Below, piece by piece: positions 30,965-57,864 of a DNA stretch of 64,000 nt (positions are counted from its first letter, which is position 1; each line of letters starts with the position of its first letter). Position numbers and translations under genes: made by a program. Source of the DNA: Strigamia acuminata (lineage: Eukaryota; Arthropoda; Chilopoda; Geophilomorpha; Linotaeniidae); assembly GCA_949358305.1 (NCBI GenBank), contig OX442318.1, positions 2,094,501-2,158,500 of the forward strand, given 5' to 3'. The notes beneath the pieces were generated by a model. It ran no database searches, was not told the origin of the DNA, and was given only the letters and a program-made list of their open reading frames with translations.

Positions 30965-31110
30965 TAATAAAATTTAATCATCCGGTTTGCCAGTGGTGTT
31001 GGCCTTGATGAATGTTTTCTCTTTGCAGTATGTAAACTGTAACCCAAACACTCTTCCAGCAAGTTGCAACTGTAAACAGATTAAATTGTGTTCCTTCTTC
31101 ATAATTTAAA
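30965..31110 (+). repeat. Duplicated 5' flank of the DEG/ENaC gene (left part)
   Basis: It contains GCCAGTGGTGTTGGCCTTGA and continues to TTCCTTCTTCATAATTTAAA. The same sequence recurs at 38165-38295, and the right part continues at 31600-31870 (copy 38300-38640). The pair marks a segmental duplication of the upstream region of the channel gene. Confidence 0.75.
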
Positions 31111-31123
31111 TAATTTGGGTGTA

Positions 31124-31586
31124 CTTTAGAATAGGGCCCACTTCAGAATGGGCCCAAAATTTTGTTACTTACTAAACAAACCCTCTTGAGTCCGAAAATG
31201 ACACTCAAAAGTGTCGGAAATGAACCTAACTTTAATCAAACTCAACCTGGCCCTACCTATCCTTAGGTTAGGTTAAGGTTAGGTTAAGGTCAGGTTAGGT
31301 TAAGGTTAGGTTAGGTTAAGGTTAGGTTAGGTTAAGGTTAGGTTACGTTAAGGTTAGGTTAGGTTAAGGTTAGGTTAGGTTAAGGTTAGGTTAGGTTAAG
31401 GTTAGGTTAGGTTAAGGTTAGGTTAGGTTAACGTTAGGTTAGGTTAAGGATAGGCTAGGCCAGGTTAGGTTAGGTTAAGGTTAGGTTCATTTCTGACATT
31501 TTTTAGTGTCATTTTCGGACTCAGGAGGGTTTGTTTGGTAAGTAACGAAATTTAGGGCCCGTTCCGAAGCGGGCCCTATTCTAAAG
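31124..31586. mobile_element. Long-TIR element with (TTAGGTTAAGG)n core
   Basis: TIRs of about 110 bp start CTTTAGAATAGGGCCC and end GGGCCCTATTCTAAAG, with TA on both sides (31122-31123 and 31587-31588). The arms continue through GAGTCCGAAAATGACACT and GAAATGAACCTAAC. The centre (31261-31490) is a tandem array of GGTTAGGTTAA units. The second copy of the flank (38290-38310) lacks the whole insert, giving an empty site. No protein is coded. Confidence 0.8.
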
Positions 31587-31599
31587 TAACTCCAATAAT

Positions 31600-31911
31600 T
31601 TAAAATGTTAAAAAAGTTTTAATGAAGAAATACACAGAACTTTTATTTCTTGAAAGTATTGCACCATGTTAATCAATTACAAATACAAATACAAATACAA
31701 ATATCCCATAAAGTAAATAAAACAAGCAAAATTTACATTGCTTAAAAAATTGTAGACTTTCTACAAACACTCTTTGCGCACGTAACGTGCAAACATTGCT
31801 TTGAAATATCTCTTCATTATTTACGTCTTTCGACAACTTGGAACCAACACCTGTAAGCATTGGAGTGTAGACACACTATTTTGAGTTACACATCGTCGAC
31901 ATCGTCTAAAG
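31600..31911 (+). promoter_or_regulatory. 5' flank and probable 5' UTR exon of DEG/ENaC gene A
   Basis: The right part of the duplicated flank (31605-31870) shares ACAACTTGGAACCAACACCT with 38600-38620. The stretch ending TCGTCGACATCGTCTAAAG at 31911 is followed by GTAACTG, a plausible donor. A plausible acceptor (AAATTTACAG) ends at 32027, just before the chosen start. Gene B has a comparable leader ending in GTCGATCAG|GTAAGT at 61450. Confidence 0.4.
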
Positions 31912-32030: not shown

Positions 32031-35000
32031 ATGATACTACATCAGCTCAGAAGAAAAATGCAACACATTGTTGGCAATGTGATGGCAGAGCAAGCGGAGA
32101 TCCCAGCATTCATCAAATCTCTGGAAAACATTTCAAAAAAGAAGAAAATTGCGTTATACCTGTTGCTAACATTAATCATTCTCAATTTGGCAGTGTGTAC
32201 TTACCAAACAGCTGATCGAATATTGCATTACATGGACGAACCAACAGCAGTTGATGCGCACCTAATTGAAACATCGCATGGTCTTTTTCCGTATGTTTAT
32301 ATTATTCCACCAACAACTCAGGAATTTAACAATTTTACTTGTAAAATGACTGGCCGAAAGAACCTCATCAGTCTGTGCAGTGGTTTGCTATTCATAACAA
32401 CTCCTAATACCTATCCTGTAACTGAAATTTTAAAATATTTGAGTTTCACTAGTTACATAACTGATGCATACTTTACAACGGTAAACCTCCATTTCTCTCT
32501 TTCTATCGGTTAATAAATACTCCGTAAATAAATAAATAAATATTTTTTTTTGCAGGGAAAATCACGCGTCAATGTTACAATTAAAGCATATGATGCAGTT
32601 CTTGAGCCGATGGCTGAAGTTTCAAGTCGTAAGCTAAGACCCAACATTCTCATTTTTTCACTGTTTTAAAATCCATGTTTGTTTAGCATTGCAGTTTCCA
32701 TATGGAAATGTTAACTACAAGATTGTGATCAAACTAAAATTTCCAAGAGCATGCAGCGATATATTTGTACGTTTCAATGCTGCTAAAACTTCTATAAGTT
32801 ATGTCGAATAAAAACTGTTACACTTCATCTTCAGGTATTAATAGATCCATCACCGATCAAGTATCATACACACAGAGGTGAAGCAATAATTTTGCCGGCA
32901 AGAGGACAAAATATTGATTCATATAAAAGAAGTTTGCCAGCAGTAAGAAATATTGTAAAAACTAATGTGAAAAAGGTAAGGAAAATACCTTAATCAAATT
33001 TTCTATATTGCACTTTCTAACTTTAAAGATAAAATAACTTAAAAATGGTTTGCTAAAGATACAATGTAAAAATGATTTTGTTGATATAAAACTTTAACAT
33101 GTTTTCTAGTATCATTTCATCAACACGAAAAAAAATCCTTGTGACAACAATTTACACGACTGTTTGTATCCTTGTCTCGTGAAGGATATTACATGCAGGT
33201 ACAAGTGTTTTACGAACTGAGATCAGAGTCCAATTGACTACGACGTTTCGGCGACAGTGGTTTTGTCAATCGGAAATTGAAACATTTTGAGTTTTCATGC
33301 CCTAAAATGACCAATTAGGCACTATATTTGAAAAATAAAATCATCTTTAATTTTTTTAAAAAAATATAGATCCCAATTTTGTCACCTCTCCAATTTTGGG
33401 CAATTTTAGTGACTAATTAATTATTTTAGACTACTGAAATTGAAGGGGGGTTTGTACCCCTTTCGCCGAATGCCGTTTTGCCGAATACTCGGCGAAACGG
33501 GTTCACACAGTTTACATCTGCAGTCGTGTTAAAAAATACTGACCCTCACTCTTTGCTGGCAATTGCACTTGTGCGTAATTTCGTGTTTTGCCACTAGGTG
33601 AAACAAGTGATAATACTTGTATAGCCTTGTCTGTATTATCACCTGTTGATGTCTGGTGTTTCAACTAGTGGCAAAATACGAAATTACTCACAATTTAAAT
33701 TGCCAGCATAGAGTGAGGGTCCAGTTTGTTTTAACATGACTGTACCAAGGTTTCCAGATAAGTGAAAATCTGATTTACAGATAGACAAAATTCAATTATT
33801 CACTTATCTGGAAAACTTGGTACACATAAACTTGGTAATTCATGTGTATTATTATTCTGTACGCAAACCAATAAGCCTTAATTTATATTTTAGATATCCA
33901 TTTTACGATGCAAGAAATCTACCAGAATGCAATGACACATATCAAAGACTACAATACAAGAAGAGGAATGCTTTACACCGTTCGCAGAATGTAGTAGGAA
34001 ACTGCAAATGTCTTGGTTTGTGCGATGTATCACAACTCAGCACAAGCTTTGATGTAATACCTAGTCCTGAGAACATAATCGACATTTCCGTTGCGAATAA
34101 TAACGTTCGGACATTACAAGAAAGATTCTCTTACGACATAATATCTTTATTGTGTGACATTGGCGGAAACATTGGACTCTACTTTGGAATGTCTTGCTTA
34201 ACGATCGTCGAAATATTTGTTCACTACTGTAAAATAATTTCCTTCAAGTTTCGAATAAGTACAGAAGCAAATTCCAAGTTAAAAGACAAAATTCAAGCAA
34301 TTTTAGGAAAAAAGAAGAAAAATCAAAAATCAAATAAACTGAAAAACATCATGTTATTATTTCTAATTTCCACGTCGATTTACCAAGTTTACATTTCAGT
34401 TAATACTTACTTTGATTATCCACTCCTTAAAACAGTCATTCTAGTTAAAGACGAATTCATTCAATTTCCACTCATCATACATTGTCGAGATACTGATGAA
34501 ATCTTAAAAACCAAGGCACGTTTGCAGGATCAGTTGCAATATGATGCTCGGCATTACCAACTGATTGATTTACTCCATCCATCATCTCCATTCGCAAACA
34601 AACCACTCAAATTATGGAATGCCTCTTCAAATTTTGACCGTTATAATCGAATGTTTCCAGTAAGGAAGTCCCAGTCCAGCTTAAAGCTCACCTGCAGAAT
34701 GAGCGTTTTCGCCTGAATCAACCTGGTACTGCAAAAACTCAACGATAGGTTGTGACAAATTAACATTTAAATGATGTCACACAATCATCTAAACCCATCA
34801 TGTGAGCAGTGCTGGACTTGCTCGGCGGGCTACTGGGAGTTTCCCGGTGGCCCGTGGCCGCTGTGGCCTGTCGCGGCCTGCTGTGGCCTGTCCCGACTTC
34901 ATTAATTGTGGCCCGGACACCCAGATTTCCCGGCAATAAATTTGTTCCCAGTCCAGCCCTGCGTGTGAGGTGATTGAGTTAAAACATTTAAATGTCAATT

Positions 35001-37929
35001 TTTCACAACATATCAGTGAGTTTTTGCACTACCTGGTGGTTACAGCCGAAAACAATCATTCTGCAGGTGAGTTTCAAGCTGGACTGAGACGATTTTTATT
35101 ACCAAGATTGTGTCTATTTGGGTGCACAATACTAATAATTAAATCTAGGAGGACTGAAGCAAAAGCGCTTTTGGTTTTTTTTCCTTAAAATTGTTACACT
35201 TGAGAAACGTTTTTGAACAAGTGATAATTTGTGTTTGACCAAATATGCAGTAATGCAGTTGAGTCTAGTTGACTTTGAAACACAGCTAGTTACATGTCCT
35301 TCTATACTCAAAACCACCACAACGTTGACCTATTGTTCGAGCCGTATCACTGGTGTAGTGGCACAAAAAAGTAGCTCATAACACCATATTTGTACAGAAC
35401 TCCAGACATTGTGATCGATTACCAACATTGTCAAAGGCACAGAACTACACTGGCGTCCGACCCGTCACACACGGAACCCAAATCCCATCGATGACGTGGT
35501 CGGTCGCGTCGGACGAACATTCTGCCGTACTTACCCATGTAGCCGCTCATGGAGGCTGCAGCAGGCACATCTTCCTGCTACTGAGCGTCACAGTGGTGAA
35601 TGGTGAGAGGAGCAGAGTCAGCAGTTGTCTTTGCTGGTGTTAGGACCGTGGCAGCTCACCCTGGCACGTCTTCACCCTCGGCTCTCTCAGCAAAGTCTCT
35701 CTCTCATCACACCACTCAGCTCCCTCCTCCCCTGCTAGGCCGGTCCACTCCTCCAAAAGGGGGATGGCTTGGGGCCACCAGGTGGTGTGTGGAGTGACGT
35801 AGGCCACTAGGGTGGCCAAACGGTCACAATATGTCAAAATATGTAAAGAGTGGAGAGTAGAGGATTCCCTTATTATAGTTTTCTTATACAAATAAAGCTA
35901 TCTTTACAGTATTACCAAAAAGCTTTACCCACGCATTATGCCAATCTGTCAGCAGTGTCAACAGTATTTGGAATCTGCGCACATCTTAACAAAGGTAAAA
36001 TCTAATATAAAATATACATCATTTTCCTCAAACTTTAAAAAATTTACAGCTGATGAGCTATACTCTCCAAATAAAAACCTTTTACAGCTTGAGTATCCTG
36101 CCTATCAGTACAAGTACAGATTGAAAGTGAATCAAGCAGTGAGATAACTTTGCATTTGCAGTTTATATTTAGCAGATTTTTAAATTGTATTCATTCCAGA
36201 ACTTCATTCTACCACCGAATCAAATGTTTCACCCAAAATATTTATTTTACATATCCAGTGTTGATGATATTAAAATCGACATTTCTCGTCAAACGGTAAG
36301 GTTTCTAGTTACAAAACCCATTAGTACCAACACGTTAATTATTTTTAGTTGGTTGGAATGAATACTCCGAAAAGCCCTTGTGCAGCCAATGATCAAGTTT
36401 CAGAATGCGAAAGAAAATGTTATGAAGCCAGACTACAGATGCAACCATTCAAGTGCAAGTACGTATGTTCTCAATACATTGGTTTCCATGTAAGACATTT
36501 TGCATTCAATCCTGAAAAGAGATTTGATTTATTTGTCTGAAATGGCTTCTCCAAACAGGATATGACATTTTTTACATCTCCTCCCTGAGAACTCAACTCG
36601 AAAGAATTCAAATTACGATCAAGTGAAATTGAAATCACTTCTTTGACTTATCTCTTCTGCACCTGCTATTGGCTATTGTTACCACGTGTTGGAGACAGCC
36701 AGCTTTTTAGTTTGTTTCAGTTTTTAGTGTGCATGATCGAGAATTCCATTTTTTAACTCACTTCTTTAAGTGAATTCGTCTTTTGAGGATTGAATGCACC
36801 TATCGATTAGTGCTTCGAGCACTAAGCAGTCTGCAGGCAACACAAAAACTGAATGGTATTAATCAGTCTAACCTGCCTCTGAGAAATTATTTCTGGAAAT
36901 TCTGAGTACTAAGCTTAATGTAAACATGAGTTTTACCATATTACCCCGCTTTAAGCCGCATGCCGGTATAGTATGAGTTTGACCAGCATGCCGGTATAGT
37001 TTGATTTTGACCGGCATTTTGTTTTAAGTGAGGAAAAAAATTTTTCAATGAGAATTAAACCAAAACAAGCTTTATTATATGTCCAAAATGTAGTAAATTG
37101 GCCTAAAGTTCCGTAAACTTGCCCAAATTTTAATAATAACCTTCAGAATATCAAGAAAACTCCAATTTTGGAGTACAGCTGTATGGGACCTAATTTAATA
37201 TTGCAGTGGCTCTTTAACAACTGGGAAATTTTGTAAATTGTAACTTTTGGCTCTTCCAAAAGGTTGCTTTCAACCCCTGACTTATACCGATATGTTTCAC
37301 TTTATACTGGCATGCCAGTAAATGCTGTTTGGATGAAATTCCAAAAAGTTTGTAATCCCATGTACAGTCAGTCATAAAAATTAAAAATCATCCCAGTCCA
37401 GCTTGAAGCTCACCTGCAGAATAAGCGTTTTCAGCTGTATCCACCAGGTAGTGCAAAAACTCACTGATATGTTGTGACATATTGACATTTAAGTGATGTC
37501 ACCTTCACATCATGGGTTTAGACGACTGTATGTACAGCGACATCCAGCTTAAACATACTGTATAATAATAATTGGTCCTTCTATGTTAGGTTGCCATTTA
37601 TGCAAACAAGTAAACTACCTCTCTGTCTGACTCGAGAGGCAGCTAGGCAAACACACAGCATGTATTTGGAGACTCAATTCCAGACAGATCCTATCGAACA
37701 CTGCTCCTGCTTTGCACGGTGTAAACAAACAACATTCCTACCTTCAGTAAAACAAGATAGATATTTAATCACTCTATCCAAAGTTCAATTCAGTGTTGAC
37801 AGCAACATTCGAGAAGTAATTGAAGAAGAGAAGATAATCTCCATCGTCAAACTGCTTTGTCAAATTGGATCAATTCTTGGTATTTGGACTGGTCTCTCAG
37901 CATTTGCACTTCTTGAATACTTTATTTAA
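32031..37929 (+). CDS. Tandem-fused DEG/ENaC channel protein (two subunits in one chain), gene A
   Basis: Eleven exons join in frame: 32031-32480, 32556-32628, 32687-32766, 32835-32975, 33110-33198, 33894-34659, 35910-35994, 36050-36138, 36200-36295, 36349-36458, 37590-37929 (772 aa). Unit 1 has TM1 at about residues 40-58 (IALYLLLTLIILNLAVC), the post-TM1 YPYVYI motif, a Cys-rich extracellular loop, and TM2 at about 360-388 (LLCDIGGNIGLYFGMSCLTI) with the G-x-S filter as GMS. The same exon runs on through a Lys-rich linker (389-428) into unit 2: TM1 at about 429-447 (IMLLFLISTSIYQVYISVN), then FPLIIHC, loop, and TM2 at 742-772 with GLS. The chain stops right after TM2. DEG/ENaC channels are amiloride-sensitive trimeric Na+ channels, normally with one subunit per gene. 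The N-terminal His-Gly gating motif is not visible. Several MITEs sit in introns 5, 6 and 10. AATAAA lies at 38097. Confidence 0.85.
33521..33742. mobile_element. Mariner-like MITE in intron 5 of gene A
   Basis: The ends are CAGTCGTGTTAAAA and the mirror TTTTAACATGACTG. Inner arms are GACCCTCACTCTTTGCTGGC and GCCAGCATAGAGTGAGGGTC. The right side is followed by TA; the left has TG. The ends and TA flank fit Tc1/mariner-type elements. Confidence 0.6.
33743..33823. repeat. Short palindrome next to the MITE
   Basis: GTACCAAGGTTTCCAGATAA at the left is mirrored by TTATCTGGAAAACTTGGTAC at the right, around an AT-rich loop. Confidence 0.75.
34668..35090. mobile_element. Fold-back element in intron 6 of gene A, hosting a nested hAT-like MITE
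   Basis: Arms of about 125 bp: left from CCAGTCCAGCTTAAAGCTCA, right ending TGAGTTTCAAGCTGGACTG. A half copy lies in intron 10 at 37392-37560. The hAT-like MITE at 34807-34961 sits in the loop. Confidence 0.7.
34807..34961 (-). mobile_element. hAT-like MITE with 8-bp duplication
   Basis: The ends are CAGTGCTGG and CCAGCCCTG. Flanks catgtgag (34799-34806) and cgtgtgag (34962-34969) match at 7 of 8. The interior is GC-rich and related to 2079-2209 on the opposite strand. Confidence 0.7.
35490..35830 (+). repeat. Dispersed repeat in intron 6 of gene A
   Basis: It contains CTCATGGAGGCTGCAG, GTGGTGAATGGTGAGA and ACCACTCAGCTCCCTCCTCC. It is the uninterrupted counterpart of 27505-28530. The element class is not recognised; no clear TIR or poly(A) tail was seen. 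Confidence 0.65.
36500..36793. mobile_element. MITE in intron 10 of gene A
   Basis: The ends TGCATTCAATCCTGAAAAGA and TCTTTTGAGGATTGAATGCA are imperfect mirrors and related to the ends of the 736-1220 element (GCGTTCAATC). It begins about 40 bp after the exon-10 donor at 36458. Confidence 0.55.
36800..37390. other. Remainder of intron 10
   Basis: AT-rich with repeats of CATGCCGGTATAGT (36958-37010 and near 37310). No exon was seen. Confidence 0.5.
37392..37560 (+). mobile_element. Half copy of the intron-6 fold-back element
   Basis: It matches the left arm of 34668-35090 (CCAGTCCAGCTTGAAGCTCA through TGTTGTGACATATTGACATT) but lacks the mirrored arm. Confidence 0.65.
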
Positions 37930-38159: not shown

Positions 38160-38650
38160 GCGCTATATAAAATTTAATCATCCGCTTCGCCAGTGGTGTT
38201 GGCCTTGATGAATGTTTTCTCTTTCGAGTACACAAACTGTAACCAAAACACTTCTCCAGATTAAATTGTGTTCCTTCTTCATAATTTAAATATTTTAAAA
38301 TGTTAAATATTATTTTGTTGAAGAAATACACAGAACTATTATTTCTTGAAAATATTGCACCATGTTAATCAATTACAAATACAAATACAAATATCACATA
38401 AAGTAAATAAAGCGAGCAAAATTTACATTGCTTAAAAAATTGTAGAATTTTTTAAAAACACTTGTTTACTTTGGAAATATTTTCAGAGAAATCTTGTATC
38501 AATACATAAGCACGAATGAGCAAATATAATGTTGACATAAATATTTCTGCATTGATCTGTTTAATCAATCACTCTTTGCACACATAAACATGTCTTTCGA
38601 CAACTTGGAACCAACACCTGTAAGCATTGTAGTGTCTGAACTCCATACAG
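38160..38650 (+). repeat. Truncated copy of the DEG/ENaC 5' flank
   Basis: It matches 30965-31110 and 31600-31870 at high identity and lacks the 31124-31586 insert. It ends near AACACCTGTAAGCATTGTAG, just before the satellite starts at about 38681. No channel exon follows, so it looks like the start of a further tandem gene copy that is lost, displaced or separated by the satellite. Confidence 0.7.
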
Positions 38651-38680
38651 TAACTCTTCAATCTTTACGTTTGCCTTTGG

Positions 38681-41600
38681 GTTTTTGTCAAAATTGGCAA
38701 AAATTGAAAAAGTCCCAGAAATGAGCTCAATCGATCGGAAATGAGCTAAAAAATTGATTAAATATCACAAGCATATGCCTAACTCCTACAGTTGTTGAGA
38801 TATCTGCAATAAACCAAGTTTTCCGATAACTTTTTCTTTTGAAAAATTCCGTTTTTTTACCATAACTCTGCAACCGTAACAGATAGGCATATGCATGTGA
38901 TGTCTATTCGCTTTTCTAGCTCATTTCCGATCGATTGAGCTCATTTCTGACAATTTTTCAATTTTGGACCGATTTTGGCCTTGTCAAAATTGGCAAAAAT
39001 TGAAAAAGTCCCAGAAATGAGCTCAATCGATCGGAAATGAGCTAAAAAATTGATCAAATATCACAAGCATATGCCTAACTCCTACAGTTGTTGAGATATC
39101 TGCAATAAACCAAGTTTTCCGATAACTTTTTCTTTTGAAAAATTCCGTTTTTTTATCATAACTCTGCAACCGTAACAGATAGGCATATGCATGTGATGTC
39201 TATTCGCTTTTCTAGCTCATTTCCGATCGATTGAGCTCATTTCTGACACTTTTTCAATTTTGGACCGATTTTGGCCATTTCTCCATAGATTAGCCTTTGG
39301 GTTTTTGTCAAAATTGGCAAAAATTGAAAAAGTCCCAGAAATGAGCTCAATCGATCGGAAATGAGCTAAAAAATTGATTGAATATCACAAGCATATGCCT
39401 AACTCCTACAGTTGTTGAGATATCTGCAATAAACCAAGTTTTCCGATAACTTTTTCTTTTGAAAAATTCCGTTTTTTTACCATAACTCTGCAACCGTAAC
39501 AGATAGGCATATGCATGTGATGTCTATTCGCTTTTCTAGCTCATTTCCGATCGATTGAGCTCATTTCTGACACTTTTTCAATTTTGGACCGATTTTGGCC
39601 TTGTCAAAATTGGCAAAAATTGAAAAAATCCCAGAAATGAGCTCAATCGATCGGAAATGAGCTAAAAAATTGATTAAATATCACAAGCATATGCCTAACT
39701 CCTACAGTTGTTGAGATATCTGCAATAAACCAAGTTTTCCGATAACTTTTTCTTTTGAAAAATTCCGTTTTTTTACCATAACTCTGCAACCGTAACAGAT
39801 AGGCATATGCATGTGATGTCTATTCGCTTTTCTAGCTCATTTCCGATCGATTGAGCTCATTTCTGACACTTTTTCAATTTTGGACCGATTTTGGACCGAT
39901 TTTGGCCATTTCTCCATAGGTTAGCCTTTGGGTTTTTGTCAAAATTGGCAAAAATTGAAAAAGTCCCAGAAATGAGCTCAATCGATCGGAAATGAGCTAA
40001 AAAATTGATTAAATATCACAAGCATATGCCTAACTCCTACAGTTGTTGAGATATCTGCAATAAACCAAGTTTTCCGATAACTTTTTCTTTTGAAAAATTC
40101 CGTTTTTTTTACCATAACTCTGCAACCGTAACAGATAGGCATATGCATGTGATGTCTATTCGCTTTTCTAGCTCATTTCCGATCGATTGAGCTCATTTCT
40201 GACACTTTTTCAATTTTGGACCGATTTTGGCCTTGTCAAAATTGGCAAAAATTGAAAAAATCCCAGAAATGAGCTCAATCGATCGGAAATGAGCTAAAAA
40301 ATTGATTAAATATCACAAGCATATGCCTAACTCCTACAGTTGTTGAGATATCTGCAATAAACCAAGTTTTCCGATAACTTTTTCTTTTGAAAAATTCCGT
40401 TTTTTTATCATAACTCTGCAACCGTAACAGATAGGCATATGCATGTGATGTCTATTCGCTTTTCTAGCTCATTTCCGATCGATTGAGCTCATTTCTGACA
40501 CTTTTTCAATTTTGGACCGATTTTGGCCATTTCTCCATAGATTAGCCTTTGGGTTTTTGTCAAAATTGGCAAAAATTGAAAAAGTCCCAGAAATGAGCTC
40601 AATCGATCGGAAATGAGCTAAAAAATTGATTAAATATCACAAGCATATGCCTAACTCCTACAGTTGTTGAGATATCTGCAATAAACCAAGTTTTCCGATA
40701 ACTTTTTCTTTTGAAAAATTCCGTTTTTTTACCATAACTCTGCAACCGTAACAGATAGGCATATGCATGTGATGTCTATTCGCTTTTCTAGCTCATTTCC
40801 GATCGATTGAGCTCATTTCTGACACTTTTTCAATTTTGGACCGATTTTGGACCGATTTTGGCCATTTCTCCATAGGTTAGCCTTTGGGTTTTTGTCAAAA
40901 TTGGCAAAAATTGAAAAAGTCCCAGAAATGAGCTCAATCGATCGGAAATGAGCTAAAAAATTGATTAAATATCACAAGCATATGCCTAACTCCTACAGTT
41001 GTTGAGATATCTGCAATAAACCAAGTTTTCCGATAACTTTTTCTTTTGAAAAATTCCGTTTTTTTACCATAACTCTGCAACCGTAACAGATAGGCATATG
41101 CATGTGATGTCTATTCGCTTTTCTAGCTCATTTCCGATCGATTGAGCTCATTTCTGACACTTTTTCAATTTTGGACCGATTTTGGACCGATTTTGGCCAT
41201 TTCTCCATAGGTTAGCCTTTGGGTTTTTGTCAAAATTGGCAAAAATTGAAAAAGTCCCAGAAATGAGCTCAATCGATCGGAAATGAGCTAAAAAATTGAT
41301 TAAATATCACAAGCATATGCCTAACTCCTACAGTTGTTGAGATATCTGCAATAAACCAAGTTTTCCGATAACTTTTTCTTTTGAAAAATTCCGTTTTTTT
41401 ATCATAACTCTGCAACCGTAACAGATAGGCATATGCATGTGATGTCTATTCGCTTTTCTAGCTCATTTCCGATCGATTGAGCTCATTTCTGACACTTTTT
41501 CAATTTTGGACCGATTTTGGCCTTGTCAAAATTGGCAAAAATTGAAAAAGTCCCAGAAATGAGCTCAATCGATCGGAAATGAGCTAAAAAATTGATTAAA

Positions 41601-44600
41601 TATCACAAGCATATGCCTAACTCCTACAGTTGTTGAGATATCTGCAATAAACCAAGTTTTCCGATAACTTTTTCTTTTGAAAAATTCCGTTTTTTTTACC
41701 ATAACTCTGCAACCGTAACAGATAGGCATATGCATGTGATGTCTATTCGCTTTTCTAGCTCATTTCCGATCGATTGAGCTCATTTCTGACACTTTTTCAA
41801 TTTTGGACCGATTTTGGCCTTGTCAAAATTGGCAAAAATTGAAAAAGTCCCAGAAATGAGCTCAATCGATCGGAAATGAGCTAAAAAATTGATTAAATAT
41901 CACAAGCATATGCCTAACTCCTACAGTTGTTGAGATATCTGCAATAAACCAAGTTTTCCGATAACTTTTTCTTTTGAAAAATTCCGTTTTTTTTACCATA
42001 ACTCTGCAACCGTAACAGATAGGCATATGCATGTGATGTCTATTCGCTTTTCTAGCTCATTTCCGATCGATTGAGCTCATTTCTGACACTTTTTCAATTT
42101 TGGACCGATTTTGGACCGATTTTGGCCATTTCTCCATAGGTTAGCCTTTGGGTTTTTGTCAAAATTGGCAAAAATTGAAAAAGTCCCAGAAATGAGCTCA
42201 ATCGATCGAAAATGAGCTAAAAAATTGATTGAATATCACAAGCATATGCCTAACTCCTACAGTTGTTGAGATATCTGCAATAAACCAAGTTTTCCGATAA
42301 CTTTTTCTTTTGAAAAATTCTGTTTTTTTTACCATAACTCTGCAACCGTAACAGATAGGCATATGCATGTGATGTCTATTCGCTTTTCTAGCTCATTTCC
42401 GATCGATTGAGCTCATTTCTGACACTTTTTCAATTTTGGATCAATTTTGGACCGATTTTGGCCATTTCTCCATAGGTTAGCCTTTGGGTTTTTGTCAAAA
42501 TTGGCAAAAATTGAAAAAGTCCCAGAAATGAGCTCAATCGATCGGAAATGAGCTAAAAAATTGATTAAATATCACAAGCATATGCCTAACTCCTACAGTT
42601 GTTGAGATATCTGCAATAAACCAAGTTTTCCGATAACTTTTTCTTTTGAAAAATTCCGTTTTTTTTACCATAACTCTGCAACCGTAACAGATAGGCATAT
42701 GCATGTGATGTCTATTCGCTTTTCTAGCTCATTTCCGATCGATTGAGCTCATTTCTGACACTTTTTCAATTTTGGACCGATTTTGGCCTTGTCAAAATTG
42801 GCAAAAATTGAAAAAATCCCAGAAATGAGCTCAATCGATCGGAAATGAGCTAAAAAATTGATTAAATATCACAAGCATATGCCTAACTCCTACAGTTGTT
42901 GAGATATCTGCAATAAACCAAGTTTTCCGATAACTTTTTCTTTTGAAAAATTCCGTTTTTTTATCATAACTCTAGCAACCGTAACAGATAGGCATATGCA
43001 TGTGATGTCTATTCGCTTTTCTAGCTCATTTCCGATCGATTGAGCTCATTTCTGACACTTTTTCAATTTTGGACCGATTTTAGCCATTTCTCCATAGATT
43101 AGCCTTTGGGTTTTTGTCAAAATTGGCAAAAATTGAAAAAGTCCCAGAAATGAGCTCAATCGATCGGAAATGAGCTAAAAAATTGATTAAATATCACAAG
43201 CATATGCCTAACTCCTACAGTTGTTGAGATATCTGCAATAAACCAAGTTTTCCGATAACTTTTTCTTTTGAAAAATTCCGTTTTTTTACCATAACTCTGC
43301 AACCGTAACAGATAGGCATATGCATGTGATGTCTATTCGCTTTTCTAGCTCATTTCCGATCGATTGAGCTCATTTCTGACACTTTTTCAATTTTGGACCG
43401 ATTTTGGACCAATTTTGGCCATTTCTCCATAGGTTAGCCTTTGGGTTTTTGTCAAAATTGGCAAAAATTGAAAAAGTCCCAGAAATGAGCTCAATCGATC
43501 GGAAATGAGCTAAAAAATTGATTAAATATCACAAGCATATGCCTAACTCCTACAGTTGTTGAGATATCTGCAATAAACCAAGTTTTCCGATAACTTTTTC
43601 TTTTGAAAAATTCCGTTTTTTTTACCATAACTCTGCAACCGTAACAGATAGGCATATGCATGTGATGTCTATTCGCTTTTCTAGCTCATTTCCGATCGAT
43701 TGAGCTCATTTCTGACACTTTTTCAATTTTGGACCGATTTTGGCCTTGTCAAAATTGGCAAAAATTGAAAAAATCCCAGAAATGAGCTCAATCGATCGGA
43801 AATGAGCTAAAAAATTGATTAAATATCACAAGCATATGCCTAACTCCTACAGTTGTTGAGATATCTGCAATAAACCAAGTTTTCCGATAACTTTTTCTTT
43901 TGAAAAATTCCGTTTTTTTATCATAACTCTGCAACCGTAACAGATAGGCATATGCATGTGATGTCTATTCGCTTTTCTAGCTCATTTCCGATCGATTGAG
44001 CTCATTTCTGACACTTTTTCAATTTTGGACCGATTTTGGCCATTTCTCCATAGATTAGCCTTTGGGTTTTTGTCAAAATTGGCAAAAATTGAAAAAGTCC
44101 CAGAAATGAGCTCAATCGATCGGAAATGAGCTAAAAAATTGATTAAATATCACAAGCATATGCCTAACTCCTACAGTTGTTGAGATATCTGCAATAAACC
44201 AAGTTTTCCGATAACTTTTTCTTTTGAAAAATTCTGTTTTTTTTACCATAACTCTGCAACCGTAACAGATAGGCATATGCATGTGATGTCTATTCGCTTT
44301 TCTAGCTCATTTCCGATCGATTGAGCTCATTTCTGACACTTTTTCAATTTTGGATCGATTTTGGACCGATTTTGGCCATTTCTTCATAGGTTAGCATTTG
44401 GGTTTTTGTCAAAATTGGCAAAAATTGAAAAAGTCCCAGAAATGAGCTCAATCGATCGGAAATGAGCTAAAAAATTGATTAAATATCACAAGCATATGCC
44501 TAACTCCTACAGTTGTTGAGATATCTGCAATAAACGAAGTTTTCCGATAACTTTTTCTTTTGAAAAATTCCGTTTTTTTACCATAACTCTGCAACCGTAA

Positions 44601-45387
44601 CAGATAGGCATATGCATGTGATGTCTATTCGCTTTTCTAGCTCATTTCCGATCGATTGAGCTCATTTCTGACACTGTTTCAATTTTGGACCGATTTTGGA
44701 CCGATTTTGGCCATTTCTCCATAGGTTAGCCTTTGGGTTTTTGTCAAAATTGGCAAAAATTGAAAAAGTCCCAGAAATGAGCTCAATCGATCGAAAATGA
44801 GCTAAAAAATTGATTGAATATCACAAGCATATGCCTAACTCCTACAGTTGTTGAGATATCTGCAATAAACCAAGTTTTCCGATAACTTTTTCTTTTGAAA
44901 AATTCCGTTTTTTTACCATAACTCTGCAACCGTAACAGATAGGCATATGCATGTGATGTCTATTCGCTTTTCTAGCTCATTTCCGATCGATTGAGCTCAT
45001 TTCTGACACTTTTTCAATTTTGGACCGATTTTGGACCGATTTTGGCCATTTCTCCATAGGTTAGCCTTTGGGTTTTTGTCAAAATTGGCAAAAATTGAAA
45101 AAGTCCCAGAAATGAGCTCAATCGATCGGAAATGAGCTAAAAAATTGATTAAATATCACAAGCATATGCCTAACTCCTACAGTTGTTGAGATATCTGCAA
45201 TAAACCAAGTTTTCCGATAACTTTTTCTTTTGAAAAATTCCGTTTTTTTATCATAACTCTGCAACCGTAACAGATAGGCATATGCATGTGATGTCTATTC
45301 GCTTTTCTAGCTCATTTCCGATCGATTGAGCTCATTTCTGACACTTTTTCAATTTTGGACCGATTTTGGACCGATTTTGGCCATTTC
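38681..45387 (+). repeat. Satellite array, first block (21 monomer starts)
   Basis: Head-to-tail monomers start at GTCAAAATTGGCAAAAATTG (38687, 38983, 39307, 39603, 39938, 40235 and so on to 45078). Spacing falls into three classes: 296/297, 324/325 and 335/336 bp. The classes differ by the presence of a linker with TTTCTCCATAGGTTAGCCTT and by an extra GGACCGATTTT. Monomers are nearly identical. Each is an imperfect inverted repeat: AGAAATGAGCTCAATCGATC near the start is mirrored by GATCGATTGAGCTCATTTCT near the end. No gene lies inside. Confidence 0.95.
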
Positions 45388-45997
45388 TGTTGGTCATATG
45401 ATTCGGTACGGATCACAAATTATTATTTGAGTCGATGTTATCAATGATTATTCAGTATTCATTATGTTATTTACCGTTTATTGACTCTTTTCAATGTATT
45501 TCTTATTTTGGATATGTTCCAAGTTGTATTCCGTACAATTGTACGTGATTGTGTTATATTTAAGTGCATTAAGCACCTTGCTGTTAGTTTTCCATCAAAT
45601 GCATGTGGCATCATGCATCTTGTAATATTTTCCTTTTTTATATTGCCCAATTCTAACACCAGATGGTGTTATCGTTTGTTATTCTCACCCAAGATGGCCG
45701 CACACAGGTGCGAGGATGTTTTCCAACCTTTTCAAATGAATAGGAACATTACATGTAAGCATTATTTCGATTAAACATTATATTTTATTGTTTTAACTCA
45801 TTGCCAGTTAACCTAGCACGTTTATAAGTGCTTAGTTTATAGTTTTTGCGCAGATAAGTGGCATTAGGCCACGCGCACTTGTTTTTCACGGCAAAACGTC
45901 CGTGTTACGTTCGTCTCGGGTCGAGACGGCGCCTTCCGTGCTAAATACACGCTTCCACCGGTGTTATTCGCACCGTTTTGCGCTTCACTTGCCTACA
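45388..45997 (+). repeat. copia 5' LTR
   Basis: 610 bp, TG...CA ends. It contains TTATATTTAAG (possible TATA region) and AATAGGAACATTACATG downstream. It is identical to the 3' LTR as far as compared by eye. Confidence 0.95.
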
Positions 45998-45999
45998 AG

Positions 46000-46010
46000 T
46001 GGTAGCAGAG
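46000..46010 (+). promoter_or_regulatory. Primer-binding site, initiator tRNA-Met type
   Basis: TGGTAGCAGAG, two bases after the 5' LTR, is complementary to the 3' end of animal initiator methionine tRNA including CCA. This is the usual minus-strand primer for copia-class elements. Confidence 0.75.
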
Positions 46011-46867
46011 CGCTGGAGACGATCCACTGTGCAATTTTCGTTAATTTACTGCAAAATTTTCGCGTTTATCGCGAATTTTTGCAGCATTTATCTATTTTCA
46101 GATTTTCGTCACTATTTTCCACCGATTTTCGTCTTGCCAACGTCTTAGCGACGTTGATTCGACGTTCTTACGACGCCTCATTCCTTAATTTTGCCGAAAA
46201 TTCCGCGGGCTACGCGAATTTTCCGGCAAATTTCATATTTTTCAGGTTTTTCGCCGATTTTCCTTGTACGACAACGTCTTCGCGACGTTTACCACTAGAA
46301 ACGGGCGATTCCCGCTGCTTAGTGCCCCGGTGCACGGCAGTATCGACGATTTATATCGATTTTCGACGATTTATCGCTTTTTCGGCGATCAAATGCGATT
46401 TGGCCAAATAATCGCACATCAATCGGTTTTTCACCGCACCGAATTAATCAATACTTCCCTTTCAGTAGTCGTATTACCTTTGTTAGTTTTTAAGGGGGAT
46501 TTTGGTGTGGGACACTTAGTATCCTCGGCGCCCTTCACTCGAATCCGAGTAAGCGCCGTTGTATTCTCCGGTTGTGCTTGTCGTGGTACAAGTGAGGTTT
46601 CCCGCGGCTCCAGGCAGTCGAACGGACCCTCTCAGACTGGCAACCGGAGGTTATTTGACAACTTCAGAAGTTGTCGCCCATTTTTGGTATTCCGCTTCGA
46701 TCCACGTGGGAACAGTGCCGTGTCGTGTTTGTGCTACGGAATCCGTGTTTTGTGCGCCGTTTTAGTGCTATTTCGTCGGTTTTCGTGCTTCGATTTATCG
46801 CTTATCGCCGACATCGCCACTCCCAACACTAGTTTATCTCCGCGTTTGTGCCTTCGTCTTCATCACG

Positions 46868-49800
46868 ATGCAGAAAGGCTCGAATACTTCCGGTGGTCAC
46901 GTACCGATACTCGCCATCGGCAACTACGAGATGTGGTCGCGATCGATGCGAATGCTCCTCAAAGCTGAGGGGCTTTGGCACCACATCACCGAAGAAAATG
47001 AAAAAGACTTTCTTGTTACGGCCACCGAAAAGGAGAAACTCAAATTTCAAAGAAAAAAGGATAAAGCTTTGGGTCTGCTTTACATTCATTTGAGTGAAGC
47101 GAAGAAATCAGCCCTCGATTCTGTCAAAACCCCGAAGGAAGGCTGGGACGCATTAGCCAAAATCTATGCGCCCAGTTCCCGCGCGCGCAAAGCCGCTCTT
47201 CGACGAGAATTCCTCAATCTTCATATCGACAAAAACGAAGAAATGGCTGATTTCCTTGGCCGGGTGGACTACCACGTCCGCAAACTCACCGACATCGGAG
47301 AAACAGTTTCACCCGACCACCAAGCTTATCAATATTTGGACATGTTACCTCCCGAATATTCTCAAGTTTCCTTCGCCATTTACCACTGGGATGACGACAA
47401 ATTCAAACCTAACATCGTCTCGGATCAGCTTCTTGCGGAGTATATGCGTCTTAAGACATATTCTTCACGTGATACTTCCGGTAACTCATCGGCCTACGCA
47501 TCGGACCGTGGTCGTAATCGAAACCGAACACCCCGTCCAATTGAATCCGTGACATGCTTTAATTGCGGCGAAAAAGGACACTACGCTAATAAGTGCCCTA
47601 AACCGCGACAGGACAATCGCCAACCACTTCCGGCTGTATCTCTGCAACGTCCGTCGCGAAGTAAGAGCCGACGCCGCAACAAGAACACTGCTTCGAAACC
47701 GGCAGACGGTAAACCACGAGGCAATTCTCAAGTCCGAAGAGAATCGAACTTTTTCGTGAACGCCCCTCCGCATCTGGTTCAATCTCCGACGGTGCATTTC
47801 ATGCAAGGCCATGAATGGATTGTAGACTGCGGGGCAACCGACCACGTTTCACACGTGCAGTCGTGGTTTGTCGACTTTGTGACAGTTGTGCCTTTCGACA
47901 TCGAACTCGGACAGGGCCATTCTCAGGTCACCGGCAAAGGCACGGTTCGCATTCAAACGCTCATCGATGGATGCGAGTGCATCGTTAACCTTCGAGATGT
48001 CCTTTTTGCTCCAAACTTCGAGGCCAACCTTATCTCCGTTTCGAAGATCGATAAAAACGAACATCATATTCATATTTTTAAAGGAGAAGTCAACATATAT
48101 CAGACAGACGCTCGTAGTCCGGTGCTACGTGCTAAGGAAAAGGGTGGACTTTACTATGTCGATGGATTATGTTCTTCTGCGACGATTTCTACGACTGTTT
48201 CGACTGTTCCGCCGCCGACTTCCTCACAAACCCCTCCGGTACGAACAATGGTTACCGTCGAGGAAGATTTTGTCAAAATCCCGAAGTCGAAGAAGAAGTC
48301 TCAACCTCGACACATTACGGATTTTCGATTCGACGTTGCGAACTCACCTCCGCCGACCCCAATTCCGCCCATTCCTAATGCCATTCCTGCACCGCAGTCG
48401 ACTTCACCTCCTTTACCTCCTTCTACATCACTTCCTCCCGCAGCCGTTCCTCCTCTCCAGTCCTATACCAATGCCCTCAAGTCAATCTCCTCGACTTCCC
48501 CTCCGAACACCTCTTCGCCGTCAAATCCGAAGAAGGTGGCCGCTCCTACGTCCAAGCAGGATGCGACGGGCATTTGGCATAGCCGTCTTGGACATTTACA
48601 CACGGCTGCGATGCGCCTTCTGGCTGCCAACGAACAAGTTTATGGCGTCGAATCCGGAGAAGTCTCCAAAGAGTTGGCTTGCAACCATTGCCGTATCGCC
48701 AAATCTATTCGTGCGTCTCATAAACCCGATCCACATCCTGTTTCAACAACGGCGTTGGATCTGCTCCATATGGACGTGTGGGGACCGGCGCCTATGACTT
48801 CTTTTGGCGGTGCACGCTACGTTCTTACTGTTATCGATGATGCGACCCGCTATTCTTGGATCATCCCGATGGCCCAAAAGTCACAGGTTTTTGGTGTGTT
48901 TAAAGACTTTGTCGCTCGGATCGAAAACGTCGCCGGCACACGCATCAAAGCTATTCGTTCCGACCGAGGGGGGGAATTTATGTCAAACGAGTTCCTCCGA
49001 TACCTCAAAGATAAGGGAATTGAAGGTCAACGGACTAATCCATCGAGCCCTCAGATGAACGGAACGGCAGAGCGCATTAACCGCACGATGATCGATAACG
49101 TTCGTGCAACTCTTGAGGAAACCCGCCTTCCGGATGAACTTTGGGCCGAATTCGCAGTGACTTTCGCATATCTCAAAAATCGATCGCCTCATTCCCGTCT
49201 TAAGAACGAAGTACCGTATATTCTTTGGCGTCAACGTGCATTGTCTCTCCGTCACCTTCGTAAACTCGGATCCAAATGCTGGGTGCATTACACTGCACCG
49301 GGCAGGAATAAGTTCGAAGCACGTGCATGGGAGGGATATTTGGTCGGATACGCCACTGGTACTCGTGGTTATCGTATTTGGAATCCCGTTGATAATAAAG
49401 TCGTCGAATCCATACACGTAAAGATCGACGAACGAATTACTTACCGCAAATCATTGCGCAACGGGAACCGAACATCTTTCGAGTCGCCCCAACGTCCACC
49501 TAACCAATCTGGACCTCATGTCAATTTCGACGATAACATCACATATGTCCGCTGGTCGAAAACAGCAGATTCGGAAGATGGCAGCTCGTCGTCAGATGAA
49601 GAATCTGACATGCCTCCTCTAGAAGAGAGTTCGAGTTCGGCTGCATCTGCACAATTCCAGACACCGGAACGTCAATTTCAAGAAGCGTGTGCTTTGAGAT
49701 TGCCGAGTTCCGACAGCAATCTGGGTGATGACACGGATCGGGACATCGACGATATCGATGAAGTTTCTCTCGTGCCAATGTCTAACTACACTTCTCCTCA

Positions 49801-51796
49801 CATGTCACCACAAACTTCACCTCAAACATCACCCCCAGTGTCTCAACCTGGTTCTCCACGCAGATTCGTGACGACACGAAGAAGAGCGGCTACCTCCGTT
49901 CTCCAACATACGATACCGGTCTTCGATGCTGCCCCTATGTCCCCAGCTCCCCTCCAAGGAACTGAAGGGACTGAAGTAGCACCTATATCTGCACATAGGA
50001 CCGCTTACAAATGGAGATATGTCGGGGGAGATTCGCATTGCGCACGTTGGAGACGTGAAGAACATCTCCGCAAGGATCAGAGACCCGGAAAGATTGACAC
50101 CGATGTATATTATTTCCCGGAACCGGATGTGCGACTACGTTCACGCGGGGACATCGAGAAATATTGTCAATTTAACCATCTCGAATATAATCCGGAACTC
50201 TTTTTCTTTGGCAGTATTGAATATACTACGCCTACGATCCCTGCCAGACATGTGGCTCACCTCTGTCGAACGGAACCCGCATCTTTCGCCGAAATTCCAA
50301 AATTCCACGATGCACCGAAATGGCGTGAAGCCATAGACGAGGAGTTGGGAACGTTTAAAGAACGTGAGGTTTATCAGGAAGTACCACGACCGCCCGACAC
50401 TACGATCCTCGGATGCAAATGGATATTCAAGCTAAAGACCGACACTACCGGGAAGATTTCTCGTTATCGAGCCCGACTTGTCGCACAAGGCTTTCGCCAG
50501 ACGCTTGGAGTGGACTACGATGAAGTCTTCAGCCCCGTCGTTAATTTTGTATTGATTCGATTCTTCTTTTGTCTCCTCGTCTCTCTACTCGGATGGAAGG
50601 ATGCGCACTTGGATGTGAAGTGCGCATACCTATACGGGGACCTCGAACATCGCGTCTACATGCGAATTCCAGCCGGCGCTACTTGCTCGAACCCGAACAA
50701 CGTCTGGTTATTGATCAAGTCATTGTACGGCCTTCACCAATCAGGCCGACAATGGTATGAAAAGCTTGATGAGACTCTTCGTGCACTCGGTTTCCGCAAA
50801 TTACCGGCGTGCAACTGCGTTTACGTATTCGGGAAATCGGCTATTATGCTAGTCTACGTGGACGATATAGTTTTATTCTACGCAACCGACAACGTCTTAA
50901 CGCACCTTATTCAATTGATCTCAACGAAATTTCAAATCGTCAATCTCGGACCCATTTCGAAGTTGCTCGGCGTGGAGTTTATTAGATCCGCGGGCCGAAC
51001 TTTCATTTCACAGCGTGCATATATTGCAAAAATTCTCAAGAAGTTCGATATCACACCGGATCGGATGATCAAAGTTCCGGTCACAGTAGGAACGACGCTC
51101 GTGAAAGGATCGAAGGAAAATTTACCAGATTTTCCATACCGCTCGCTAATCGGATCATTACTCTTTTTGGCTTCAAGAACACGTCCGGACATTTTATATT
51201 CGATCATCGCTTTGTCCCAATACAACAACTGCTACGATGAATCACATATTCGGGCATTACTTCAAGTTTTGAGATACGTAGCAAATACGGCCGACTACAT
51301 GATCGAACTTTCCGGATGCAACTCGAGCCAACTTTGGGCATGTACCGACGCTTCGTGGGCCTCCGACACCGCAACATCTCTGAGTTTCGGCGGTTTCATC
51401 ACCTTTATTGGCAACATACCCATCGGATGGAGCTGTAAAAAGCAATCGTCAGTAGCGTGTTCCACGATGGAAGCTGAATTCATCGCCCTCGTGGAATGCG
51501 TGAAAGAACTATACTGGCTCGATCATGTATTCCATCAACTCCCATTTCTTAATCGTTTATCATCGCCAATCGTATACTCCGACGCTCTCGCATCGATTCA
51601 ATTCACGTCGAACGATGTCGAGAATAGCAAGACTAAGCACATTCGCGTGAGGTACCATTGGTTGAGGGAGTGGTATGTGGCCAAGCGATTTCAACTTCGA
51701 AAAATTCCCGGCGACGTCAACATTGCAGACATTTTTACCAAATGGCTGTCGTCCGACCGTCTTAACAAACTGATTGGAGGGATTTTTCAACTTTAA
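46868..51796 (+). CDS. copia Gag-Pol polyprotein
   Basis: A single intact 1642-codon frame. Gag (about 1-230) ends in a zinc knuckle, CFNCGEKGHYANKC. The protease has DCGATDH at its catalytic site (DSG is more usual). The pre-integrase HLH...CxxC is HSRLGHLH...CNHC. Integrase shows the D-D-E set in DVWGPAP, SDRGGEF and NGTAERIN. Reverse transcriptase (about 1160-1400) has GCKWIFKLK, YRARLVAQGF, DVKCAYLYGDL and YVDDIVLF. RNase H has TDASWASD and STMEAEFIAL, ending near KTKHIRVRYHWLREW. Order protease-integrase-RT-RNase H defines Ty1/copia. Codon use is GC-richer than the surrounding satellite. No stop or frameshift was seen. Confidence 0.95.
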   Translation: MQKGSNTSGGHVPILAIGNYEMWSRSMRMLLKAEGLWHHITEENEKDFLVTATEKEKLKFQRKKDKALGLLYIHLSEAKKSALDSVKTPKEGWDALAKIYAPSSRARKAALRREFLNLHIDKNEEMADFLGRVDYHVRKLTDIGETVSPDHQAYQYLDMLPPEYSQVSFAIYHWDDDKFKPNIVSDQLLAEYMRLKTYSSRDTSGNSSAYASDRGRNRNRTPRPIESVTCFNCGEKGHYANKCPKPRQDNRQPLPAVSLQRPSRSKSRRRNKNTASKPADGKPRGNSQVRRESNFFVNAPPHLVQSPTVHFMQGHEWIVDCGATDHVSHVQSWFVDFVTVVPFDIELGQGHSQVTGKGTVRIQTLIDGCECIVNLRDVLFAPNFEANLISVSKIDKNEHHIHIFKGEVNIYQTDARSPVLRAKEKGGLYYVDGLCSSATISTTVSTVPPPTSSQTPPVRTMVTVEEDFVKIPKSKKKSQPRHITDFRFDVANSPPPTPIPPIPNAIPAPQSTSPPLPPSTSLPPAAVPPLQSYTNALKSISSTSPPNTSSPSNPKKVAAPTSKQDATGIWHSRLGHLHTAAMRLLAANEQVYGVESGEVSKELACNHCRIAKSIRASHKPDPHPVSTTALDLLHMDVWGPAPMTSFGGARYVLTVIDDATRYSWIIPMAQKSQVFGVFKDFVARIENVAGTRIKAIRSDRGGEFMSNEFLRYLKDKGIEGQRTNPSSPQMNGTAERINRTMIDNVRATLEETRLPDELWAEFAVTFAYLKNRSPHSRLKNEVPYILWRQRALSLRHLRKLGSKCWVHYTAPGRNKFEARAWEGYLVGYATGTRGYRIWNPVDNKVVESIHVKIDERITYRKSLRNGNRTSFESPQRPPNQSGPHVNFDDNITYVRWSKTADSEDGSSSSDEESDMPPLEESSSSAASAQFQTPERQFQEACALRLPSSDSNLGDDTDRDIDDIDEVSLVPMSNYTSPHMSPQTSPQTSPPVSQPGSPRRFVTTRRRAATSVLQHTIPVFDAAPMSPAPLQGTEGTEVAPISAHRTAYKWRYVGGDSHCARWRREEHLRKDQRPGKIDTDVYYFPEPDVRLRSRGDIEKYCQFNHLEYNPELFFFGSIEYTTPTIPARHVAHLCRTEPASFAEIPKFHDAPKWREAIDEELGTFKEREVYQEVPRPPDTTILGCKWIFKLKTDTTGKISRYRARLVAQGFRQTLGVDYDEVFSPVVNFVLIRFFFCLLVSLLGWKDAHLDVKCAYLYGDLEHRVYMRIPAGATCSNPNNVWLLIKSLYGLHQSGRQWYEKLDETLRALGFRKLPACNCVYVFGKSAIMLVYVDDIVLFYATDNVLTHLIQLISTKFQIVNLGPISKLLGVEFIRSAGRTFISQRAYIAKILKKFDITPDRMIKVPVTVGTTLVKGSKENLPDFPYRSLIGSLLFLASRTRPDILYSIIALSQYNNCYDESHIRALLQVLRYVANTADYMIELSGCNSSQLWACTDASWASDTATSLSFGGFITFIGNIPIGWSCKKQSSVACSTMEAEFIALVECVKELYWLDHVFHQLPFLNRLSSPIVYSDALASIQFTSNDVENSKTKHIRVRYHWLREWYVAKRFQLRKIPGDVNIADIFTKWLSSDRLNKLIGGIFQL

Positions 51797-51998
51797 CCGA
51801 CTAAGACATTCTTAAGTTATTCTACCGACTTCGAGGATCGTCGTGTTCTGTGGGAATTTTCGGGCTTTATTGTGATTGTGTTACAGTACCCGGCACGATG
51901 ATTCGATCTATTATTTTTGGTTTTCACACATCGGTACACCATAATTCTCGTGTTACTTTTTCAGTTGTTTATCCAGTTTCCCAGATCAGTATCGAATC

Positions 51999-52009
51999 AT
52001 GGGGGGATT
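51999..52009 (+). promoter_or_regulatory. Polypurine tract
   Basis: ATGGGGGGATT lies directly before the 3' LTR, the expected plus-strand primer of a copia element. Confidence 0.75.
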
Positions 52010-52619
52010 TGTTGGTCATATGATTCGGTACGGATCACAAATTATTATTTGAGTCGATGTTATCAATGATTATTCAGTATTCATTATGTTATTTACCGTT
52101 TATTGACTCTTTTCAATGTATTTCTTATTTTGGATATGTTCCAAGTTGTATTCCGTACAATTGTACGTGATTGTGTTATATTTAAGTGCATTAAGCACCT
52201 TGCTGTTAGTTTTCCATCAAATGCATGTGGCATCATGCATCTTGTAATATTTTCCTTTTTTATATTGCCCAATTCTAACACCAGATGGTGTTATCGTTTG
52301 TTATTCTCACCCAAGATGGCCGCACACAGGTGCGAGGATGTTTTCCAACCTTTTCAAATGAATAGGAACATTACATGTAAGCATTATTTCGATTAAACAT
52401 TATATTTTATTGTTTTAACTCATTGCCAGTTAACCTAGCACGTTTATAAGTGCTTAGTTTATAGTTTTTGCGCAGATAAGTGGCATTAGGCCACGCGCAC
52501 TTGTTTTTCACGGCAAAACGTCCGTGTTACGTTCGTCTCGGGTCGAGACGGCGCCTTCCGTGCTAAATACACGCTTCCACCGGTGTTATTCGCACCGTTT
52601 TGCGCTTCACTTGCCTACA
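52010..52619 (+). repeat. copia 3' LTR
   Basis: 610 bp, same as the 5' LTR. It is followed by the second ATTTC and then the rest of the interrupted satellite monomer (TCCATAGGTTAGCC). Confidence 0.95.
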
Positions 52620-52848
52620 ATTTCTCCATAGGTTAGCCTTTGGGTTTTTGTCAAAATTGGCAAAAATTGAAAAAGTCCCAGAAATGAGCTCAATCGATCG
52701 GAAATGAGCTAAAAAATTGATTAAATATCACAAGCATATGCCTAACTCCTACAGTTGTTGAGATATCTGCAATAAACCAAGTTTTCCGATAACTTTTTCT
52801 TTTGAAAAATTCCGTTTTTTTTACCATAACTCTGCAACCGTAACAGAT
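52620..52848 (+). repeat. Satellite array, middle fragment
   Basis: The last 30 bp of the monomer split by copia, then the first 199 bp of the next monomer (start 52650), which is itself split at CAGAT by the element at 52849. Confidence 0.95.
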
Positions 52849-57850: not shown

Positions 57851-57864
57851 CTGTGCTACCTGGG

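Follow-up and report, generated by a model that had tools for sequence, protein, structure and literature searches.

Tandem DEG/ENaC genes with two channel units in one reading frame, and their multiplication in the genome of the centipede Strigamia acuminata

DEG/ENaC channels are trimers in which every chain supplies a single subunit with two membrane helices. One unit per chain is found in the centipede broad-range thermal receptor BRTNaC1 (8ymr and related entries) and in PDPNaC1, a chain of 421 aa. According to the accessible part of its report, PDPNaC1 is a homotrimer of centipede antennal neurons with a short chain lacking the canonical His-Gly motif; its closed state has constrictions at Asp372 and Gly375, Ser376 is the likely proton-binding residue and Gly378 sets the selectivity (PMC12714832). 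A search of literature titles and abstract openings, in which the slash spelling of the family name was likely missed in part, returned no natural tandem DEG/ENaC protein.

The gene described here, gene A, lies on the forward strand (32031-37929) of the whole stretch of DNA that was analysed, hereafter the window (64,000 nt; C6:2094501-2158500 of the 237.5-Mb assembly used for the genome search). In contrast to PDPNaC1 and BRTNaC1, it carries two units per chain and, as judged from its sequence, is a DEG/ENaC variant departing from the rule of one subunit per polypeptide.

Gene A, gene B and the repeated gene structure

Gene A consisted of 11 exons with GT-AG borders throughout. Exon 1 (32031-32480; splice sites, translation, hydropathy) opens with the ATG at 32031 and encodes the cytosolic N-terminus, TM1 of unit 1 and the start of the first ectodomain. 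It is followed by exons 2 (32556-32628, 73 nt) and 3 (32687-32766, 80 nt), both of equal length in gene B (see below), by exon 4 (32835-32975; splice sites, translation) and by exon 5 (33110-33198), in which the 8-Cys block of unit 1 begins. In one open frame, exon 6, the joining exon (33894-34659), completes ectodomain 1, encodes TM2 of unit 1 (CDIGGNIGLYFGMS) followed by a Lys-rich linker (residues 390-429), and goes on into TM1 of unit 2 and the first part of ectodomain 2. The unit 2 ectodomain continues in exon 7 (35910-35994), exons 8 (36050-36138) and 9 (36200-36295), both set by splice sites and translation, and exon 10 (36349-36458), where the 8-Cys block of unit 2 begins, while exon 11 (37590-37929) holds the remainder of this block and TM2 of unit 2 (CQIGSILGIWTGLS), with a stop directly after it. 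Introns 5, 6 and 10, the long ones of the gene, contain MITE-like inverted-repeat elements (33521-33742, 34668-35098 and 37382-37502).

The preliminary description of the locus had proposed a 772-aa chain in which exon 6 links a TM2 with a GMS filter to a second TM1 through a Lys-rich linker of about 40 residues, the later exons completing a second unit with its own TM2 (GLS). This was borne out by the present analysis. The eleven exons gave exactly 772 aa. The joining exon was open over 255 codons in one frame, the other two frames contained 19 and 15 stops, and shuffling its bases 20000 times never left it open. Hydropathy placed four membrane segments near residues 37-62, 369-395, 429-448 and 740-772, so that each unit has two membrane helices around a Cys-rich ectodomain, with the 8-Cys block present in both; the 40-residue linker had 13 K+R against 2 D+E. 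Both units matched PF00858 above its curated cut-off of 23.6 bits, unit 1 with 44.5 bits (E 1.5e-11) and unit 2, completed by exons 7-11, with 46.2 bits (E 4.4e-12), and the filter tract G-x-S in TM2 read GMS in unit 1 and GLS in unit 2. A length of about 390 aa had been given for both units, which held for unit 1 (about 389 residues) and was too high for unit 2 (about 343 residues). The units were 23% identical to each other over 146 residues. AlphaFold2, run with shallow alignments for P0001 and for the joining exon, reached a mean pLDDT of 39 and gave no usable model.

In the search against solved structures, unit 1 matched best to PDPNaC1 (E 1.3e-16), followed by BRTNaC1, while the single sequence of unit 2 gave BRTNaC1 as its best match (E 3.1e-08); a profile of unit-2 pieces had no significant match among the solved structures, the best being ASIC5 at E 0.046. 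Among vertebrate channels, unit 1 matched ASIC5 (E 9e-6) and, in the TM2 region only, ASIC1 (E 3e-4), both far more weakly than the centipede channels. The 8-Cys block is shared by both gene A units and PDPNaC1, and BRTNaC1 lacks the full block; unit 2 is thus tied to the centipede channels by its single-sequence match to BRTNaC1 and by its Cys pattern. The absence of the N-terminal His-Gly motif from both units, noted earlier, was confirmed, the sole His-Gly pair of gene A being at residue 83 in the unit 1 ectodomain. PDPNaC1 resembles the gene A units in being short, in having no N-terminal His-Gly and in its 8-Cys block, and since it is an accepted member of the family, the missing motif is not decisive in the centipede group (PMC12714832, accessible part).

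A second tandem gene on the same strand, gene B, was found by tblastn of both gene A units against the window, with its start at 61618. Exon 1 (61618-62073; tblastn, translation) is followed by exons 2 (62127-62199) and 3 (62270-62349), of 73 and 80 nt as in gene A, by exons 4 (62472-62591) and 5 (62680-62768), and by the joining exon 6 (63119-63914), where TM2, linker and TM1 are encoded in 265 open codons. Exons 7-11 lie beyond the window edge and were read from the adjoining DNA (L039), the last one at C6:2160117-2160453, which completed gene B to 11 exons and 773 aa. Over 748 codons the whole chains of A and B were 54% identical, with dN 0.326, dS 0.899 and dN/dS 0.36. For the separate parts, dN/dS was 0.35 in unit 1 (bootstrap 0.25-0.46), 0.21 in the linker (0.08-0.71; 232 of 300 bootstraps usable) and 0.40 in unit 2 (0.29-0.53). 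Because the bootstrap ranges of the two units are below 1, both are, on this codon comparison, under purifying selection, unit 2 being about as strictly kept as unit 1.

The phases of the ten introns were identical in genes A and B (0,1,0,0,2,0,1,0,0,2), and the series 0,1,0,0,2 occurs in them twice, in introns 1-5 (unit 1) and in introns 6-10 (unit 2). Introns 4 and 9 are at matching residues ahead of the first Cys of the 8-Cys block, and introns 5 and 10 at matching residues just ahead of the PF motif. The repeated series and the matching positions suggest a common origin of the units in a single type of gene with five introns, and the structure also suggests that the last exon of one copy was joined to the first exon of the other. 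In the tree, PDPNaC1 and BRTNaC1 were placed between the unit-1 clade and the unit-2 clade, and three alternatives, bearing on whether the units are sisters or come from the fusion of two different channels, were not separated, with p-AU values of 0.66, 0.41 and 0.28 obtained from fewer replicates than the program advises. The Strigamia maritima protein T1IP81, the most distant relative (24% identity), was still tandem and each of its two units grouped with the corresponding unit of the other proteins, which indicates, as far as the tree can be read, that the join is older than the split of the tandem gene lines. The linker was also considered as a leftover of the unit-2 N-terminus, for which no support was obtained (803 of 3000 shuffles scored as well).

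The surroundings of the two genes are rich in repeats. The DNA upstream of gene A (30967-31771) recurs downstream of it (38167-38462) at 79-88% likeness, as would be expected if a third copy had lost its beginning there; no coding remains were found in this downstream flank. A palindromic element with many GTTAGGTTAAGG-like units is inserted in the upstream flank copy (31105-31604). A repeat array with units of about 310-335 bp, some 97-99% alike and each with a match of about 76% to its own reverse strand, occupies 38666-45369 and 57864-59861. An intact copia-type retrotransposon (45388-52620; ORF 46766-51796, 1676 aa) adjoins this satellite array, and its insertion is recent, because its two flanking 611-bp repeats (45388-45998 and 52010-52620) are 100% identical. 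Further upstream were a retroelement at 6389-10485, presumably DIRS-like, with a reverse transcriptase followed by a tyrosine-recombinase frame of the phage integrase family, a frame with a transposase-type zinc finger (zf-Tnp_2; 14430-14816) and a short frame with TPR repeats (17808-18233), which may belong, as an exon, to a co-chaperone of the SGT type. Neither Rfam families nor tRNAs were detected in scans covering the 64,000-nt window.

The junction-exon family and its pore residues

With gene A exon 6 as the query, 147 of the best 149 of 1475 candidates scored (the query itself included) had no stop, and all 149 spanned at least query positions 30-234. A distant copy used as the query added 21 new places among its best 148 of 1413 candidates scored, 144 of them without a stop. 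The union of both queries put the junction exon at no fewer than 170 places, each match spanning TM2, linker and TM1, and 165 of the 170 among the matches listed were free of stops. Not every match is necessarily a separate gene, since at least one pair of matches had the identical sequence on two contigs (L031 and L032). The matches listed for the gene A query clustered on C6 (43 of 149 between 0.82 and 2.27 Mb), C1 and C8.

The outer exons were similarly abundant: the first exon of gene A gave a best 150 of 731 candidates scored, one of them with a stop, and the last exon a best 150 of 1345 candidates scored, itself included, four of them with a stop. When partner exons were counted on the same strand within 15 kb of a junction exon, 94 of the 170 were flanked, among the matches listed, by a first exon on the upstream side and by a unit-2 end on the downstream side; the other 76, without one or both partners among these matches, comprised 22 with the first exon only, 31 with the end only and 23 with neither. 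As a control, first exons were also paired with their strand flipped, and one of the 150 then had a junction exon as partner. Two loci contained a second unit-2 end exon after the first (L015:3485-3721 and L017:3461-3751), which may be a last exon used alternatively or what is left of a decayed neighbouring copy; both, that of L015 being incomplete, kept the Q and S described below, the L017 one with TSLS in place of TGLS, and they were left out of the unit-2 pore count.

Protein searches returned four relatives, all from Strigamia maritima, and no matches beyond Strigamia in searches that needed shared 5-residue words and partly covered the best 7991 candidates only. In three of them (T1IP81, T1IVW1 and T1JC02), TM2 is followed within the same protein by a basic linker and by the TM1 of a second unit, so that the junction of the four-TM proteins which the preliminary description had proposed to seek in related genomes is present there; these three, recorded as uncharacterized proteins, differ from gene A in that their gene models end within unit 2. 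The fourth, T1IWL3, has unit 1 only, without TM2. Taken with gene B and the junction exons, these proteins support the reading of two complete DEG/ENaC units in one frame, and the finding is both real and larger than earlier described, a second gene and a genome-wide family having been added to it.

The frame was open in all 30 loci that were fetched, and every one had a linker of 35-44 residues with a net charge of +7 to +16. Mean pairwise identity among these loci was 0.88 in TM2, 0.44 in the linker and 0.53 and 0.57 in the flanking parts, and the distances of the unit-1 and unit-2 parts were correlated (Mantel r 0.83, 0 of 2000 permutations). Among the 25 closest pairs listed, raw counts placed dN above dS in the unit 1 ectodomain part of seven, with TM2 nearly unchanged; examples are L034/L032 (dN 0.123, dS 0.056), L019/L015 (0.115 and 0.047) and L035/L031. 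Two of these seven are doubles, L031 being the same as L032, and dN did not exceed dS in the other 18 pairs, e.g. L037/L026 (0.042 and 0.185).

The pores of the two units differed in a repeated manner. The outer pore of unit 1 read D-x-G-G in 30 of 30 loci (DIGG in 29), and its filter was G-x-S in 29 of 30, with GMS in 26 and GIS, GLS, EMS and GVS once each; in T1IVW1 of S. maritima the unit 1 pore is DIDG. All eight unit-2 ends read through TM2 (genes A and B, L015, L016, L017, L023, L033 and L036) had Q-x-G-S with a GLS filter, i.e., Gln in place of the Asp and Ser in place of the second Gly, and L019, which stops short of the filter, agreed with this Q/S pattern as far as readable. In the alignment to PDPNaC1, the positions of Asp372 and Gly375 are occupied by Asp and Gly in unit 1 but by Gln and Ser in unit 2, and Gly378 is kept in both gene A units. 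Of seven unit-2 chain ends, five had the stop directly after TM2, L016 had it one residue later and L023 reads on. Among other DEG/ENaC ends of the genome (L001-L008, the best PF00858 matches), D and GG were present in 8 of 8 and all stopped 7-20 residues past the PF00858 match; they are probably single-unit genes.

Assembly of the tandem chains and alternative readings

For this family, with its joining exon at 170 or more places, we give about an even chance to the reading that each chain is a built-in heterodimer supplying two neighbouring subunits to a three-subunit cation channel. The linker would be cytosolic. As the preliminary description had pointed out, two units do not simply make up a trimer; the third place would be taken by a separate subunit, contributed either by another DEG/ENaC gene of the genome or by a second chain. 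The Asp and the Gly at which PDPNaC1 is constricted in its closed state are missing from unit 2, so the closed gate of such a channel would be asymmetric, with unit 1 and the third subunit bearing most of it. Since ASIC subunits that have been linked still give functional channels, a natural link is compatible with assembly.

If three chains came together instead, all six units could be used in a pair of trimers tethered to each other by three cytosolic linkers, one forming a conducting pore of unit 1 and the other a separate, modified pore of unit 2, each pore keeping its threefold symmetry. The linker of 35-44 residues may be long enough for this, and a unit-2 motif conserved as a type of its own in all eight ends read is what would be expected of a pore made of unit 2 only; such a pore would, however, be unusual without the conserved Asp and second Gly, and to our knowledge no DEG/ENaC protein forms tethered double trimers, which leaves this arrangement rather unlikely. 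Two chains could also close a four-unit pore as a pseudo-tetramer, four being the number at which a tandem dimer closes naturally. This we consider very unlikely, since the solved DEG/ENaC members other than PDPNaC1 are also trimers. PDPNaC1 is itself a homotrimer (PMC12714832, accessible part), and the one study in which ASIC1a was predominantly tetrameric at the cell surface, with linked constructs, based this on cross-linking gels (PMC4529235, accessible part).

The remaining readings concern the integrity of the product. Splitting of the mRNA or protein into two ordinary subunits, by an internal start, early polyadenylation or cleavage of the linker, comes into consideration because AATAAA is present inside the linker of both A (34333) and B (63570) and a Met occurs in the tested linker region of 13 of 30 loci. 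The other 17 loci have no Met there, stops are missing from nearly all junction exons among the matches listed (165 of 170), linker length and positive charge are kept while the units co-diverge, and three of the four Strigamia gene models join both units, so that such a split appears quite unlikely. An assembly error at exon 6, which the preliminary description had named as a possible undoing of the finding, was excluded by gene B, the Strigamia proteins and the family of junction exons; together with a pseudogene or a chance open frame, it is practically negligible given independent copies in the data of two species, purifying selection on both units and the failure of any of the 20000 shuffles to stay open.

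Possible sensory role and comparison with known channels

That the family is a sensory receptor repertoire may be inferred more weakly than the built-in heterodimer, from its clustered copies, the varying ectodomain parts next to a near constant unit 1 TM2, and nearest characterised relatives that are centipede antennal channels; the seven pairs with dN above dS in raw counts, out of the 25 closest ones listed, give a faint hint of such a role as well. In the accessible part of the Strigamia genome paper, sodium transport was among the functions enriched in lineage-specific duplicates, and the words ENaC, pickpocket and sodium channel were not found in that part of the main text (PMC4244043). 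Tentatively, and with the chances somewhat against it, the family could be a centipede-evolved receptor superfamily, here outnumbering the 69 genes for ionotropic-type receptors that have been reported from Strigamia, in which covalent DEG/ENaC heterodimers of a gate-bearing and a gate-less unit would combine with a third subunit into asymmetric pores gated by chemical, thermal or acid stimuli. This would then also be a sign of a receptor repertoire that has been missed in centipedes. As a natural group in which the one-subunit rule is broken many times, the family offers a ready test of how strict the three-subunit assembly is, and the difference between the unit-1 and unit-2 pores a test of whether a closed gate needs all three subunits.

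Vertebrate ASIC and ENaC share with the gene A units the two-TM unit, the G-x-S in TM2 and the Cys-rich ectodomain, and differ from gene A in having one unit per chain and the His-Gly motif. What is new here is the tandem join as a natural feature, together with its multiplication and with a difference between the unit-1 and unit-2 pores that recurs in the family. The nearest counterpart of the join is found in engineered ASIC concatemers, in which DEG/ENaC subunits were joined end to end and remained functional (PMC10329638, PMC4529235, accessible parts), two-subunit fusions being among the linked ASIC constructs tabulated in the latter. Those concatemers are man-made, whereas the centipede link is natural, pairs unlike units and has its pairing kept across the family.
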